Part shown: positions 54,953-62,056 of the stretch, one piece after another
Position numbering within the stretch: position 1 is the first letter of the stretch
Layout of the letters: every line of letters starts with the position of its first letter
Assembly: GCA_001724025.1 (NCBI GenBank)
Contig: MEDJ01000023.1
Coordinates: forward strand, 124,001 to 188,000
Source of the DNA: Acidobacteria bacterium SCN 69-37
GTDB lineage: Bacteria > Acidobacteriota > Vicinamibacteria > Vicinamibacterales > SCN-69-37
DNA: 64,000 nucleotides
Direction of reading: 5' to 3'
The notes under the pieces: generated by a model
What the model saw: only the letters and a program-made list of their open reading frames with translations
Told to the model about the DNA's origin: nothing
Database searches by the model: none
Program-made: the position numbers and the translations under genes

Positions 54953-55888
54953 ATGCATCGAGACATGGATCCCCGCGAGATCGAACGGGATCGGCCGGAG
55001 ATGCCCCGCGGTGGCCGGGGTGGGTCGGATCCCGAGCGCGCTGTCGAGCGTACCGAGTCGAGAGATCCGCTGACGCGAGAGCTGAGCTTGCCACGAGGGC
55101 GTGCGCGCGAGCACGTGCGGTCTCGCGACTGGGAAGGCGAACTGCGCGGCTCCGAAGTGCGCATCCTCGCCACGGCCGGCGCCTTCCGCGTCGTGCCCAT
55201 GGACGAACTGCGTCGTCCGCAGGACCGACCGCACGTGCATCGCAAGGACGTCGAGAGGCTCCGTGCTGAGGGCCTCGTGCGCACCACGCCGTACTTCGTA
55301 GGGCGTCGCCAGACCACGCTTGTGTCCCTCACAGAGCGTGGCCGGAGTGTGCTCGATGGTGCGCGGCGAGACCGCGGGGGCGAGTCCCGGCAGTCCTTCT
55401 ACGCAGGCCTGAGCAAACCGCGCGAACTGGCGCATGACACCCGCCTGCACGCCGCCTACAGAGACGCATCCCGGAAGCTGGAAGGTCGGGGGCTCCGGGT
55501 CGAGCGTGTCGTGCTGGAAGAAGAGCTCAAGCGCGAGTACCAGCGGTTTCTACAGGAACCCAATCGGGGGCGGCGCGAGAGCTCCGGGAGACCGGGCCGG
55601 ACGGCCGAGGAGATTGCCCGGTGGGCTCACAACCACGAGCTGCCGGTGATCGACGATCACGTGCAGTTCCCCGACCTGCGCATCGAGTGTGAACGGGACG
55701 ACGGAGGCCGCGAGATCGAGGACGTCGAGGTCGTTACGCCGCACTATCGAGGTGCGCATGCCGCTGCCAAAGTGAGCGCCGGGTTCACTCGCTATGGAGC
55801 CGTTGGGGCCCGGTTCGGCGGTTCATCGGGCCGCGGTCGTGGTGGCCGAGGGCGTGACGTGCGCCTGGCCGAGGAGATGCTGTCGTGA
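54953..55888 (+). CDS. wHTH protein, replication-relaxation-like (function unknown)
   Basis: wHTH-like DRPHVHRKDVERLRAEGLVRTTPYFVGRRQTTLVSLTERGRSVLD; C-terminal PDLRIECERDDGGREIEDVEVVTPHYRG. Confidence 0.6.
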   Translation: MHRDMDPREIERDRPEMPRGGRGGSDPERAVERTESRDPLTRELSLPRGRAREHVRSRDWEGELRGSEVRILATAGAFRVVPMDELRRPQDRPHVHRKDVERLRAEGLVRTTPYFVGRRQTTLVSLTERGRSVLDGARRDRGGESRQSFYAGLSKPRELAHDTRLHAAYRDASRKLEGRGLRVERVVLEEELKREYQRFLQEPNRGRRESSGRPGRTAEEIARWAHNHELPVIDDHVQFPDLRIECERDDGGREIEDVEVVTPHYRGAHAAAKVSAGFTRYGAVGARFGGSSGRGRGGRGRDVRLAEEMLS

Positions 55889-56889
55889 CCGCCGCCGAGC
55901 GGGTTCAGGCGGTCGCTGCAAAGCACTTCACAGAGCGTCAGGCACGCTTTCTGGTCACCGTGATGCTCCATTCTGGGGTCTGCATGCGCCGTCACTACTG
56001 CGCCTTCGCCGGTATTCGCCACGGGCAGGTGGACATCAACTTCTTCGACCGTCTCACGACCGACAAGTTCGCGACGGCCTTCGACTGCAAGCACAATCGC
56101 GCCCGGATCTACCACGTCCACCACCGCTCCCTGTACGAGGCGATTGGTGAGCCGCACTCGCGGTTGAGAAAGCCCCTCGCGCTCGCGCGCGCAGTCGAGA
56201 ACATCATGCTACTCGACGCGGTGATCGCCCGCCGGGACATCACCTGGCTGGCCACCGAACGCGAGAAGGTCGAACACTTCTCGATGCGCGTCGGTCACCT
56301 CCTGCATCGCGACGAGTTCCCTCATCTGGACTTCGGGGAATCAGGGGACATAACGACCCGGTATTTTCCCGACCGGCTCCCGATCGGTGTGGATCCAGAC
56401 CGCCACGGACACCTGTTCCTTTACCTCGTCACCCGCCGCGACCCTGTCGACTTCCGCCCCTTCCTGCTGCGGCACGCGGATCTGCTCAGGGTTCTGCCGA
56501 AGTGGACGCTGCAGCTGCTGGTGCCAGCCCACTTCGCCGAGTCGACCGAGGCTTACGTGGCCGCCGCACGACAGGAACTGGCGGCGCCGCTGAGGGCCTC
56601 CGTCGTCGACGAACTGCGCTGGTACTTCGCAGAGCGCCAGCGTCTGGCAGCCGCGGCCGACAGCTCTCGGAGCACCGACCCGGCCCGCTACCAGCGCGTC
56701 AGGCGAGCCTTCGGTGCACCCCGGTACCGCGTGCTGTACCGGACGTGGACGCGCGTCGGCGACCGAGCGGTCAACGGTCTCCAGTCCCGCGTGCTGGCCG
56801 ATGCGCTGGAGCGTCGATCGGGGCGAATCGAGTGGCAGTCGCTGCCTCGCCCTTACCTTCATCTCTCTCCCCTGGTAGGCACGGCATGA
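55885..56889 (+). CDS. Unknown protein coupled to the wHTH gene in the conjugation cluster
   Basis: MTAAERVQAVAAKHFTERQARFLVTVMLHSGVCMRRHYCAFAGIRHG...; overlaps the previous stop; no family confidently recognised. Confidence 0.7.
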   Translation: MTAAERVQAVAAKHFTERQARFLVTVMLHSGVCMRRHYCAFAGIRHGQVDINFFDRLTTDKFATAFDCKHNRARIYHVHHRSLYEAIGEPHSRLRKPLALARAVENIMLLDAVIARRDITWLATEREKVEHFSMRVGHLLHRDEFPHLDFGESGDITTRYFPDRLPIGVDPDRHGHLFLYLVTRRDPVDFRPFLLRHADLLRVLPKWTLQLLVPAHFAESTEAYVAAARQELAAPLRASVVDELRWYFAERQRLAAAADSSRSTDPARYQRVRRAFGAPRYRVLYRTWTRVGDRAVNGLQSRVLADALERRSGRIEWQSLPRPYLHLSPLVGTA

Positions 56890-56900
56890 GGGGCTTGGCT

Positions 56901-56943
56901 CTAGACAATAGGGTAGACAACGGGCCGGGAGGCACTTGTCTAG
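56901..56943. repeat. Three TAGACAA boxes (two direct, one inverted)
   Basis: CTAGACAA 56901-56908, TAGACAA 56914-56920, TTGTCTAG 56936-56943. Confidence 0.75.
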
Positions 56944-57112
56944 GCCGCCAGAGAGGGGCCGCACCCGAACGGTCGCCCGCGGAGCCGGCGCCAGTGCCTG
57001 TCGTCAGGGGCGCCATGTGCTTGTGCGGCAGGGAGATAAGTGCGCCTGCAGCCGATGCAACGGGCGGCGTTCTGTGCCGCCCGCCGAGGGCATCGAAGCC
57101 GCACTACATGAC

Positions 57113-57195
57113 GAATCGGGGCGTGAGCGACCCCCCGACTTCGGCCGCTGGCCCCTTCGGCGCGCGGCCCCGGAGGGTCGCTCACGCCCCGATTC
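57113..57195. repeat. 21-bp perfect inverted repeat with 41-bp spacer; candidate oriT/regulatory structure
   Basis: GAATCGGGGCGTGAGCGACCC (57113-57133) and GGGTCGCTCACGCCCCGATTC (57175-57195); nested GGCCGC/GCGGCC in the spacer; noncoding region before the small basic protein and T4CP genes. Confidence 0.75.
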
Positions 57196-57343
57196 CCGGC
57201 CCAGCTCGGGCGGCAACTCCTGGCCCAGCTCGCGTCCGACTCAGTGTCCATCGCGGCTGCCCACTTGGCGCGTCCCCGCATGTTGGCGCAATCCCCACAT
57301 GCCTGGCCGTGACACGACTCCAACCCTTCAGAAGGAATGAGCC

Positions 57344-57619
57344 ATGGCGCTGATCAAACCCCGTACACGCGGCAAGCAGCTCGTGAGGCACCGCACCCGC
57401 CTCGATCACGAGACGAACGAAACTCTTTACGCCTACGCGCACTTCATCGGCGAGCCAACCGAGTACGTGCTCAACCAGGTGATCGACAACGTGCTGGCCA
57501 AGGACAAGGACTTCCAGCAGTGGCGGGCCACGCACCCCGACTCTTTTGTCCCGCGGAACGGCGGGCGTCGGCGTTCCGGCAGCACACGGGCCAAGGGTGC
57601 CTCACCGGCGATCGCGTGA
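57344..57619 (+). CDS. Small basic protein, possible relaxosome accessory/RHH-like
   Basis: MALIKPRTRGKQLVRHRTRLDHETNETLYAYAHFIGEPTEYVLNQVIDNVLAKDKDFQQW...; directly upstream of T4CP. Confidence 0.7.
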   Translation: MALIKPRTRGKQLVRHRTRLDHETNETLYAYAHFIGEPTEYVLNQVIDNVLAKDKDFQQWRATHPDSFVPRNGGRRRSGSTRAKGASPAIA

Positions 57620-57648: not shown

Positions 57649-59634
57649 ATGCTCCGCGCGATCATCGACGCCCGGGCCTTGCTGGCGACGCTGGCCGCAG
57701 CCGCCGTCGGCGTGTACGGCCTGCAGGCGTTCCCTATTCAGCGGGACAACCCGTTCCTCGTCATCATCGAAGCGAGGCGTCCGGAGATCGCACACGGACT
57801 CGCGTACACCTACGGCCTCCTGTGGTTCTCCACGCCGTTCTGGCTGGCGTCCATCGTGATGTCCCTGGCCGCGATCGTAGCGTCCGGACTCAAGCCCTCC
57901 TGGGCCTACCGTCCCCTGCCGCGGTATCCGGAGCCCGAACAACGGGCCGAACTCTCGCTGGTCCTGGGCGAGACGCACTTCCCGGACCGAGGGGGGCGAG
58001 CGCCAGAACCCCGCTGGCTCCAGATTCCTGAACGCGGGCTCTACACGGGCATCATGGTCCTTGGCGCCGTGGGAACGGGGAAGACGTCCGCATGCATGTA
58101 CCCGTACGTGGACCAGCTCCTGCGCTGGCGGGCAGACGATGCCGACCGCAAGCTGGGTGCGCTGGTGATGGAGGTCAAGGGTGACTTCTGCCATCAGGTG
58201 CGAGACATCCTTCGCCGCACAGGTCGCGCCGACGACTACATCGAGGTGGGCCTCGATACGAACGTCAGCTACAACCCGCTGCACAACGACCTGGATCCGT
58301 ACGCCGTGGCCTACGCCATCGCGACGCTGCTGAACAACCTGTTCGGGAAGTCGAAGGAACCCTTCTGGCAGCAGGCGTACACGGACGTGCTCAAGTTCGT
58401 GATCCTGCTCCGGCGAATCACCGAGGGCTACACCACCTTCGCGGACGTCTACCAGTACATCCTCGATGACAGCCGCATCGCGCACGACATCAAGCGCCTC
58501 AAGGACTCACTCGACGATCCGCAGGATGTCATCCGGATCCGAACCGAGGAGTACGCGCTGCTCGACGTGCATCGGTGGAGCCAGTGGTTTCCCGTCGACG
58601 ACGGCTTCATGGCGCACCCCTACAACGCCGAACTCGACGGATACCTGAACAAGAAAGGGGTGTCCCAGGGCGTGTCGAAGCCCAACGGCGCAGGATGGGC
58701 CGAGCGCAAGCACCAGATCGAGGCCCTCGATCGCTGGTACTCCCAGGGCTGGAGCCGACTCGACGCGAGACTGCGGTCGAACATCACCGAGGGCATCGTG
58801 GTGTTCCTGTCGTTGTTCGACGACAACCCCTCGGTTCACCGCGCGTTCTGTCCCCCGCGGCGGTCCTACATGGACATGCGTCTGCCGGGCGACCTCGAAC
58901 CGCTCCAGCCGCTCGATACGCTGCTCGACACGGGGAAGGTGCTGGCGCTGAACTTCCCGGTCGCCATGAACCCTGGCCTGGCGCGAATCATCGGCGTCAT
59001 GCTGAAGCTCGACTTCCAGCGCGCAGTGCTTCGCCGCATCCCGAAGTTGAGCGCCGATAGCTCGCGAGTCTGGCGCGACCTGCTGTTCGTGTGTGATGAG
59101 TACCACGCCTTCGCTACGGTGGGTGAAACGGACCCGACTGGTGACGAGCGCACCTTCGCGCTGTCACGTCAGGCGCGATTGATTCCGATCGTGGCCACGC
59201 AGAGCATCAGTTCCCTGCGGTCGGTGCTCCCGGGAGACGAGAGCTGGCGCACGCTCCTTCAGTGCTTCCGAAACAAGGTGTTCCTCGCGACCAGTGACGA
59301 GTTCACCGCTCGCAACGCCGCAGACCTGTGCGGCCGGAAGGACCGGATCAAGGCGCGCTACTCCATCGCGGAGTCTGGCAGCGATACGCACGTGTCGTTC
59401 CTGACGGGACGCACCGCGGCCGCACGTCAGGCAATCACCGCGACCAAGAGCTACGGGCCGGTGCACGAGCACATTTTTGCGCCGCGCGTGTTCACTGAGT
59501 TGCAGAACGCCCAGGCCATCGTTCTGCCTTACGACGGTGTCAACCCTCTGCCGCCGCAGTACTGCTACCTGAAGCCGCACTACCTCGACGTGCAGACAAG
59601 CTACTTCGACCACGTCGCGTCGGGGGCACTATGA
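57649..59634 (+). CDS. VirD4/TraG-like type IV coupling protein
   Basis: N-terminal TMs; Walker A VLGAVGTGKTSACMYPYVDQL; LLFVCDEYHAFATVGE; IVATQSISSLRSVL. Start corrected from the longer ORF. Confidence 0.92.
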   Translation: MLRAIIDARALLATLAAAAVGVYGLQAFPIQRDNPFLVIIEARRPEIAHGLAYTYGLLWFSTPFWLASIVMSLAAIVASGLKPSWAYRPLPRYPEPEQRAELSLVLGETHFPDRGGRAPEPRWLQIPERGLYTGIMVLGAVGTGKTSACMYPYVDQLLRWRADDADRKLGALVMEVKGDFCHQVRDILRRTGRADDYIEVGLDTNVSYNPLHNDLDPYAVAYAIATLLNNLFGKSKEPFWQQAYTDVLKFVILLRRITEGYTTFADVYQYILDDSRIAHDIKRLKDSLDDPQDVIRIRTEEYALLDVHRWSQWFPVDDGFMAHPYNAELDGYLNKKGVSQGVSKPNGAGWAERKHQIEALDRWYSQGWSRLDARLRSNITEGIVVFLSLFDDNPSVHRAFCPPRRSYMDMRLPGDLEPLQPLDTLLDTGKVLALNFPVAMNPGLARIIGVMLKLDFQRAVLRRIPKLSADSSRVWRDLLFVCDEYHAFATVGETDPTGDERTFALSRQARLIPIVATQSISSLRSVLPGDESWRTLLQCFRNKVFLATSDEFTARNAADLCGRKDRIKARYSIAESGSDTHVSFLTGRTAAARQAITATKSYGPVHEHIFAPRVFTELQNAQAIVLPYDGVNPLPPQYCYLKPHYLDVQTSYFDHVASGAL

Positions 59635-60635
59635 GCAGTCTGGAGCGCATCCTGCCGTTCTTGCGGCCCATCGAGGATCTCCTGCAGGACCCGACCGTGA
59701 CCGAAGTCATGGTGAACTGTGGCGGACGCAAGGTGTTCGTGGAACGGCACGGAGCCATCGAGCCGGTGCCGGAGCGGACCCTCGAGGTGCGGAATCTCAC
59801 CGTTGCGATCAAGAACATCGCCCGGGCCTGTGGCGACGAGATCTCGGAGGCACAGCCTGCGCTTGACGCCAGACTGGAGGACGGATCGCGTGTGGCCGCG
59901 ATGTTTCCTCCGTGCTCGGTCGACGGCCCGACGCTCACCGTCCGAAAGTTCACCCACCGCTACACGCTGCAGGAACTGGTCGAGTGCGGCACGCTGTCGG
60001 TGCCACTGGCGACCCATCTGACAGATGCCGTACGGCGCCGCAGAAACGTCCTGATTTCAGGAGGCACCGGTACGGGCAAGACGACGCTCCTGAACGCGCT
60101 GGCAGCGACGATTCCCCTGGACGACCGAATCGTCCTAATCGAGGAGACCTCCGAGATTGTCATCGACAAGCCGAACCTCGTCCGGTTCGAGGCCCGCCGA
60201 GCGCAGGCGCCCATCGGTCATGAGGCTCCGCTTCCGCCCGTCACGATCGCGGATCTCCTCAGAGCCACGCTACGGCACCGGCCGGACCGAATCCTGGTGG
60301 GAGAAGTGAGGGGCGCCGAAGCGTTCGATCTCTTGCAGGCTCTGAATACCGGCCATCAGGGCGCGCTGAGCACCATTCACGCAAACTCGGCCGAGCAGGC
60401 GCTGGCTCGCCTGGCGCATTGCGTGCTCACCGCAAACACCGGGCTGCCGCACCGCGGCACGCGCGAGGCCATCGCCCTGGCGATCCATCTCGTCGTGCAC
60501 ATCGAGCGCGTGGCTCGGACACGCCAGGTCACCGGCGTAGTAGCGGTTTCTGGATACGACGCGGCCACGGATCGCATTCGTCTCGAACCTGTCAATATCG
60601 TGGATGCCCCCGCCCAGGAAGGAGCATTCGCATGA
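59631..60635 (+). CDS. VirB11/TrbB-type ATPase
   Basis: ISGGTGTGKTTLLNALAA; IVLIEETSEI; LRHRPDRILVGEVRGAEAFDLLQALNTGHQGALSTIHANS. Confidence 0.95.
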   Translation: MSSLERILPFLRPIEDLLQDPTVTEVMVNCGGRKVFVERHGAIEPVPERTLEVRNLTVAIKNIARACGDEISEAQPALDARLEDGSRVAAMFPPCSVDGPTLTVRKFTHRYTLQELVECGTLSVPLATHLTDAVRRRRNVLISGGTGTGKTTLLNALAATIPLDDRIVLIEETSEIVIDKPNLVRFEARRAQAPIGHEAPLPPVTIADLLRATLRHRPDRILVGEVRGAEAFDLLQALNTGHQGALSTIHANSAEQALARLAHCVLTANTGLPHRGTREAIALAIHLVVHIERVARTRQVTGVVAVSGYDAATDRIRLEPVNIVDAPAQEGAFA

Positions 60636-61126: not shown

Positions 61127-62056
61127 ATGGCGATCGATCTCGAGGCGCCGCTCCGGTTCCTGCACACGGCGTTCCGGTCAGACGACTGGATCGCAATCCT
61201 CTTGAAGTCGCACGACACCGGCGGCAGCGCCCAGCGTGTTGGGCCGATGTCGCTGATCGCCAGCCCGAGGTTTCAGGCGTGGCTCAGAGCCGAGAACGCG
61301 AGGCGATTCAGCGTGTTTGTCAGCGTGAACGCCATCCGGCCGCAGCGGAAGGCCAGAACACGCGACGCGATCGGGGACATCCGCCACGTCTTCCTCGATG
61401 CCGATCGCGATGGCCCGTTGCTGCTGGCGACTATCCAGGCGCGCCGCGACCTTCCGCCACCGTCATTCGTGATCCATTCGTCACCGAACCGTCTGCACGT
61501 CCTGTGGCGCGTGGCCGGATTCACGAAGGAAGAGGTCGAGGCACTTCAGAAGCGGCTGGCCGCCGAACTCGGCACCGACAAGACGGCGACCTCCTGCGCT
61601 CAGGTCACCCGAATGCCAGGATTCTTCAACCACAAGTACCGGCCTGGGCCGATGGTCGGCGTGGGGTACGCGCCCGGCCGGAGCGTGTTCAGCCCGCGGG
61701 ACTTCCCGTTGCAGCAGACGGCGAGCGCGCTTCCGCCGCCCGACTCGACGAATCATCGATCGAGCCATTCGTCCGACGTTTTGGACCGGGCACGAAGGTA
61801 CATCGCGACGATCCCTCCTGCCGTCGCGGGCAATCACGGTGACACGGCGACCTTCCGCGTCTGCTGCCGGCTCGTGCGAGGATTCGCCCTTGGTGATGAC
61901 GAAGCGCTGGATGTGTTGGCCAGCTGGAACAGCGCCTGTCTGCCGCCGTGGTCCGAGGAGGAACTCCGGGCGAAGCTCGCCGGGGCTCGCCGATACGGTC
62001 GGGAGCCTCTGGGTGGCCTGCTTGGTGGACCGGCGCCTCACCCCTCAGCGGGCTGA
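61127..62056 (+). CDS. RepB-like DNA primase domain protein
   Basis: FVSVNAIRPQRKARTRDAIGDIRHVFLDADRDGPLLLATIQ...PSFVIHSSPNRLHVLWRV...TRMPGFFNHKY; archaeo-eukaryotic primase-like pattern. Confidence 0.82.
   Translation: MAIDLEAPLRFLHTAFRSDDWIAILLKSHDTGGSAQRVGPMSLIASPRFQAWLRAENARRFSVFVSVNAIRPQRKARTRDAIGDIRHVFLDADRDGPLLLATIQARRDLPPPSFVIHSSPNRLHVLWRVAGFTKEEVEALQKRLAAELGTDKTATSCAQVTRMPGFFNHKYRPGPMVGVGYAPGRSVFSPRDFPLQQTASALPPPDSTNHRSSHSSDVLDRARRYIATIPPAVAGNHGDTATFRVCCRLVRGFALGDDEALDVLASWNSACLPPWSEEELRAKLAGARRYGREPLGGLLGGPAPHPSAG

Follow-up and report, generated by a model that had tools for sequence, protein, structure and literature searches.

A two-gene module and a conserved inverted repeat as a candidate relaxosome core and transfer origin of integrative elements in Acidobacteria

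The window analysed here is a stretch of 64,000 nucleotides (contig C23:124001–188000) from the 4.43 Mb genome of Acidobacteria bacterium SCN 69-37; the locus finds its closest named relatives in Acidobacteria MAGs. It contains two forward-strand genes, P1 (54953–55888) and P2 (55885–56889), whose reading frames are both open over these coordinates and in which the stop of P1 and the start of P2 overlap by four bases (GTGA). The original prediction, made from the letters of the window, had placed two coupled genes in the mobilization slot of a conjugative element; its coordinates are right, and the gene order is VirB8–P1–P2–small gene–VirD4–VirB11. Since 31 homologues of P1 and 32 of P2 can be aligned, with an identity of roughly 33–60%, the two frames are real genes rather than chance ORFs.

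VirB8-like and small membrane genes precede the pair, and a small gene, VirD4 and VirB11 follow it, all on the forward strand. The mating-channel operon directly upstream of P1 (46820–54940) contains VirB4-, VirB9-, VirB10-, VirB5- and TrbL-like genes, VirB8 and a gene for a small membrane-type protein, in which all names except VirB8 are based on position, the original prediction and conservation across loci. Downstream, a gap of 454 bp after P2 (56890–57343) is followed by a small conserved protein (57344–57619), a VirD4/TraG-type coupling ATPase (57649–59634; TrwB_AAD_bind, TraG-D_C) and a VirB11/TrbB-type ATPase (59631–60635). The small protein gives weak RelB/Arc-like hints, and its assignment to the RHH proteins found no confirmation; by its position between the conserved DNA site and VirD4, it is an analogue of relaxosome accessory proteins. 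A RepB_primase-domain protein (61127–62056) is encoded after VirB11, here and in several related ICEs, and a further homologue lies near C23:225 kb.

P1 comprises a low-confidence N-terminal arm, a MarR-like wHTH and a putative PD-(D/E)xK-like core with the motifs H161 D162, P240 D241 and D257-x-E259-x-x-T-x-x-Y265. The MarR-like wHTH had been proposed from the outset and agrees with a Foldseek search of the P1 model, which led to MarR-type regulators, and with weak MarR matches in a profile search of solved structures. A single-domain MarR regulator is ruled out by the further conserved domain C-terminal to the wHTH. Among 48 P1 sequences, the kept residues are R79, Q147, H161, D162, P240, D241, E259, Y265 and G277, with E259 and Y265 present in 98%. 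The C-terminal PDLRIECERDDGGREIEDVEVVTPHY segment, to which the original prediction had drawn attention, is among the most conserved parts of the protein, and its P240, D241, E259 and Y265 are kept in essentially all 48 sequences. Position 257 is mostly D or N, the alignment gives either D257-x-E259 or a lone E259, and P1 has no clean E-x-K/E-x-D.

The family in question is Replic_Relax (PF13814), which has been listed and scored as a MobC relaxase family (PMC5357655). At a permissive threshold, four of the 31 P1 members match it, three of them more weakly than the best (E=2.8e-5, 24.7 bits), whose match is limited to the wHTH and the following helix and falls short of the curated Pfam cut-off of 25.3 bits; the P1 and P2 of the window itself match neither PF13814 nor any other relaxase family. 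Comparison by hhalign of order-level alignments with nine Acidobacterial Replic_Relax sequences returned nothing convincing, and a signal appeared only after distant members and shuffled controls had been added: the alignment of all P1 sequences then scored 30.6 and that of the distant ones 33.3, against maxima of about 20 for 40 block-shuffled or reversed controls. AlphaFold models built with three sequences (pLDDT 54 and 45) were too poor for fold comparison in P2 and in the nuclease part of P1. On the family matches and profile scores, P1 is called Replic_Relax-like here, short of membership; it is a divergent Replic_Relax/MOBC-like protein and the candidate nicking subunit. True Replic_Relax genes also occur in the phylum, several of them near FtsK/VirD4-type ATPases and integrases; those at L112, L119 and L120, in other Acidobacteria, lie near such ATPases and tyrosine integrases.

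P2 combines a wHTH-like N-terminus with a region that is weakly Replic_Relax-nuclease-like by profile and in which the acidic motif is degenerate. Its N-terminus is compatible with the wHTH originally proposed, but the model of this part is of low confidence. The distant P2 set scored 24.2 against Replic_Relax over nearly the full length and the set of family f23 27.7 within the nuclease region, in each case higher than any of the 40 controls, whereas f55 P2 alone did not exceed its shuffled controls; remote homology above controls thus extends to P1 and most P2 sets. As read from the alignments, the position of the catalytic Glu is occupied by an aromatic residue, and f55 has lost the aspartate of the PD motif. 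The H-x-H of P2 (H77, H79) is not conserved among its distant members, and neither P1 nor P2 matches a family profile of the HUH relaxases (MOBP/F/Q/V). P2 is therefore described here as a probable degenerate relative of Replic_Relax and a candidate site-specificity subunit. The earlier suggestion that proteins of the replication-relaxation kind might stand in for the relaxase gains support for P1 from its sequence (2.8e-5 in one homologue, and the profile scores) and for the P1–P2 module from its context; P2 itself has no Pfam relaxase match.

The absence of a canonical relaxase, also part of the original prediction, is upheld in that neither the element nor its flanks yielded a MOBP, MOBF, MOBQ or MOBV relaxase, and the accompanying idea of a relaxase beyond the 64 kb draws no support from the families searched. 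These were MOBP, MOBF, MOBQ, MOBV (run without a positive control) and MOBH. In the genome of the window (G000), the MOBF, MOBQ and MOBV models gave no match, and the MOBH model gave two weak partial matches on contig C4; similar ones turned up in unrelated control genomes. A single MOBP match (C9:525654–526025) lies on another contig, in an unrelated element (L238:14175–16094) that also carries a small RHH/MobC-like gene and a gene for a 1037-aa protein. Four other genomes (G305, G019, G033 and G188) contain the P1–P2 T4SS region and no MOBP/F/Q/V match.

A conserved DNA site lies 3' of P2 in most loci. The gap that contains it measures about 440–460 bp in most related ICEs with a resolved start of the small gene and 350–550 bp in others, and is shorter in f23. 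It holds three features, the first of which is a triple repeat composed of two direct copies of TAGACAA (56902–56908 and 56914–56920) and an inverted TTGTCTA (56936–56942). The repeat is element-specific: most related ICEs of the order, and some small elements, have the same direct spacing (mostly 12 nt) but different sequences. Triple repeats of this type are present in 16 of 64 loci, compared with 1.7 expected from shuffles. The second feature is a GC hairpin, CGGGCGGC-GTTCTGT-GCCGCCCG (57061–57083), which precedes the third in many loci; within the order, the spacing is alike in ICEs, in small elements and in some of the elements that have the site only. The third is a long inverted repeat (57113–57195) with the core GTGARCGACC, a left arm GAATCGGGGCGTGAGCGACCCCCCG (57113–57137) and a right arm CGGAGGGTCGCTCACGCCCCGATTC (57171–57195), which is the candidate oriT core. 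The region at 56.89–57.34 kb, earlier proposed for a nicking assay, hence holds a strongly conserved and structured site.

With a required outer-arm complementarity of 6/10, the site was found within 2.5 kb downstream in 42 of 58 P2 loci; the C6 site, cut by a fetch boundary and recovered by genome scan, is one beyond the 42. A regular expression that specifies the 8-nt core only and leaves ten flanking positions free on each side found the site in 17 of 24 genomes and in neither of the two genomes without P2 (G002 and G014), while the reversed pattern occurred mostly 0 or 1 times per genome, with 5 in G030. In the outer arms, 86% of cells pair, compared with 66% after shuffling; all ten pairs have changed on both sides, with 109 double-change cells compared with 34 in shuffles, and the single-stranded DNA fold is stable (z about −4 to −8). 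This complementarity could also arise via palindrome conversion at the DNA level instead of selection on the fold. The core type (GAGCGACC or GAACGACC) tracks P2 clades with 2 changes on the tree, GAACGACC being restricted to two of them. Rfam gave chance-level matches only on the repeat, and no sigma-70 promoter or terminator pattern was seen in the intergenic region. A REP-like dispersed palindrome is ruled out by the 0–5 copies per genome, and a recombinase-specific att site by the same repeat standing beside tyrosine and serine recombinases. In f55 (L195, L198, L199, L202, L214 and L216), a second palindrome, whose arms vary while its loop (CAGCACCCCC) is similar, is located right after P2.

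Five P1/P2 loci are present in the genome of the window (on C23, C6, C19, C17 and C9), and among 60 relatives P1 and P2 each occur in 22 genomes. In the phylum-wide sample, both are also present in other classes, far outside the order of the window; no relatives were found in plasmids or IMG/VR. Many genomes of the order keep the ICE-type arrangement VirB4–B9–B10–B5–TrbL–B8–small–P1–P2–small–VirD4–VirB11, as do families f16 and f23, where additional genes are inserted. In f34 and f55, P2 immediately precedes VirD4, and P1 occupies another place in the T4SS region, mostly upstream of VirB4. About half of the loci are devoid of any T4SS in the stretch read, and there P1–P2 or P2 alone is found near a tyrosine integrase and an excisionase-like gene, or near a serine recombinase. 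As P2-only elements exist, P1 is dispensable in cis. On the P2 tree, the label of ICE or no T4SS requires seven changes, at least five of which are forced by well-supported branches; thus, the module has moved repeatedly between the two contexts.

Beyond what had been foreseen, the pair and the site together recur in small elements lacking a T4SS, and there are also copies of the site that have no pair with them. Several copies of the site have no nearby P1/P2, and many of these stand beside a recombinase. A copy on C7 of the same genome (L270:7100–9470) is accompanied by a tyrosine integrase, an excisionase-like gene and a tmRNA adjoining the integrase; it is nearly identical to the site of the window over the cores of both arms and a portion of the spacer, and this recombinase and site without P1/P2 possibly represent a hitchhiking element. 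The copies in G019 and G037 lie with a serine recombinase at tRNA-Ala, and further recombinase-linked copies occur in G030 and on two IMG/VR contigs. Element ends were looked for and not found around the site-only copies, for which the term element rests on the recombinase and target gene. A chromosomal match in a carB-like gene of G160 and two matches in phage coding sequence, none of them with complementary outer arms, were set aside as chance.

An origin of transfer is expected to be common to helpers and hitchhikers, to lie near mobilization genes and often to be structured. The observed hierarchy of ICEs, P1–P2 elements and site-only elements is as an oriT predicts, and the site, common in cis to helper and mobilizable elements, stands beside mobilization genes and has a hairpin and inverted repeats. 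The hairpin/inverted repeat is thus a strong oriT candidate, one that may serve elements throughout the phylum, and 56890–57343 is best read as the candidate oriT of the P1–P2 module. We propose, with a probability of about 0.68, that P1–P2 is a two-subunit relaxosome core derived from the Replic_Relax (MOBC) relaxases of restriction-endonuclease fold that acts at a composite site at 56902–57195. P2 would bind the site, as residue conservation and the P2-only elements suggest, and P1, with its invariant H-D, P-D, E and Y, would nick one strand through a metal-dependent PD-(D/E)xK-like centre. The small protein (57344–57619) and VirD4 may then deliver the nicked strand to the T4SS, and ICEs that carry P1–P2 could mobilize in trans those elements that have P2 plus the site or the site only. 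Points against this reading are that the P1 and P2 of the window match no relaxase family, that P1 has no clean E-x-K/E-x-D and P2 no Pfam relaxase match, that f55 P2 scored within its controls, that P2-only elements do without P1 in cis, and that the site would also suit a replication origin or an operator.

Alternatively, P1–P2 and the site may be a replication or maintenance module, in which the excised circle begins to replicate at the inverted repeat through the action of P2 (with P1), and another relaxase performs the transfer. The Pfam name (Replication-relaxation), the RepB_primase-domain gene nearby, the origin-like long hairpin and the ability of relaxases to double as replication initiators (PMC5357655) all point this way, and a replication origin is harder to exclude as the function of the site than an operator or att site. 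This explanation is nevertheless unlikely, given that the position adjacent to VirD4 is kept across the phylum, the site-only copies beside recombinases encode no initiator and several genomes contain no other relaxase among the families searched. It is quite improbable that P1 and P2 are wHTH regulators of transfer and excision genes, with the inverted repeat as their operator. The MarR-like wHTH of P1, the intergenic position of the site before the VirD4 operon, and the proximity, in small elements, of recombinase and excisionase-like genes to the site are in keeping with such a role; however, P1 has, in addition, a conserved domain that carries PD and E motifs, the outer arms covary rather than hold one sequence, which an operator does not need, and the same site occurs with tyrosine and serine recombinases and in copies without P1/P2. 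Least of all do we expect an unlinked or other-type relaxase (C9 MOBP, MOBT or tyrosine-recombinase type) to nick the ICE with P1–P2 as accessory relaxosome proteins. The one MOBP gene of the genome with its small MobC/RHH-like partner speaks for this, as do the MOBT, MOBB and TcpM types beyond the families searched; against it, the MOBP gene sits in an unrelated element, and the same T4SS region occurs in other genomes without MOBP/F/Q/V matches.

The proposed relaxosome core resembles the MOBC relaxases (TraX of pAD1 and MobC of CloDF13; PF13814) in its N-terminal wHTH, the PD...E motif order, a conserved H in the preceding helix, an adjacent VirD4-type ATPase and its use by integrated elements. 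MOBC relaxases have an endonuclease fold, and TraX has an N-terminal wHTH (PMC12857230). Unlike them, P1 and P2 are two proteins rather than one, P1 has an invariant Tyr and no clear E-x-D, P2 has lost acidic residues, and the pair scores below the family cut-off and is found here in Acidobacteria only. As in the TraX/pAD1 oriT with its distal relaxase-binding repeats (PMC12857230), direct repeats lie well away from the structured region, in the present case about 120–170 bp from the hairpin and inverted repeat, but here they consist of two direct copies and one inverted copy. The published scheme of ICE, iMOB and iOriT (PMC11389934) likewise has a cis site common to self-transmissible, mobilization-gene-only and site-only elements; unlike those cases, the present one is known from sequence alone, and its type of relaxase and oriT is absent from the papers found. 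In the open-access literature searched, no account of a module of this kind in Acidobacteria turned up. That P1–P2 forms a new relaxase class, namely an endonuclease-fold-derived pair that acts on a large hairpin oriT and serves a three-tier network (ICEs, P1–P2 or P2-only elements, and site-only elements) across Acidobacteria, with P1 as a subunit whose active site is remodelled and contains an invariant tyrosine, and P2 as a non-catalytic specificity subunit, is as a whole a tentative and rather doubtful proposition.

Such conjugative elements would be typed as relaxase-less and, together with the smaller elements that may accompany them, be missed by relaxase-based typing. A recognisable protein pair and cis site would make transferable and hitchhiking elements findable by sequence in a large soil phylum. 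A split, partly non-catalytic relaxase architecture would also be brought within reach of a direct nicking test. In the elements without a T4SS, AbiEi/AbiEii-like genes are repeatedly located near P1–P2 (L071, L073, L075 and L077).
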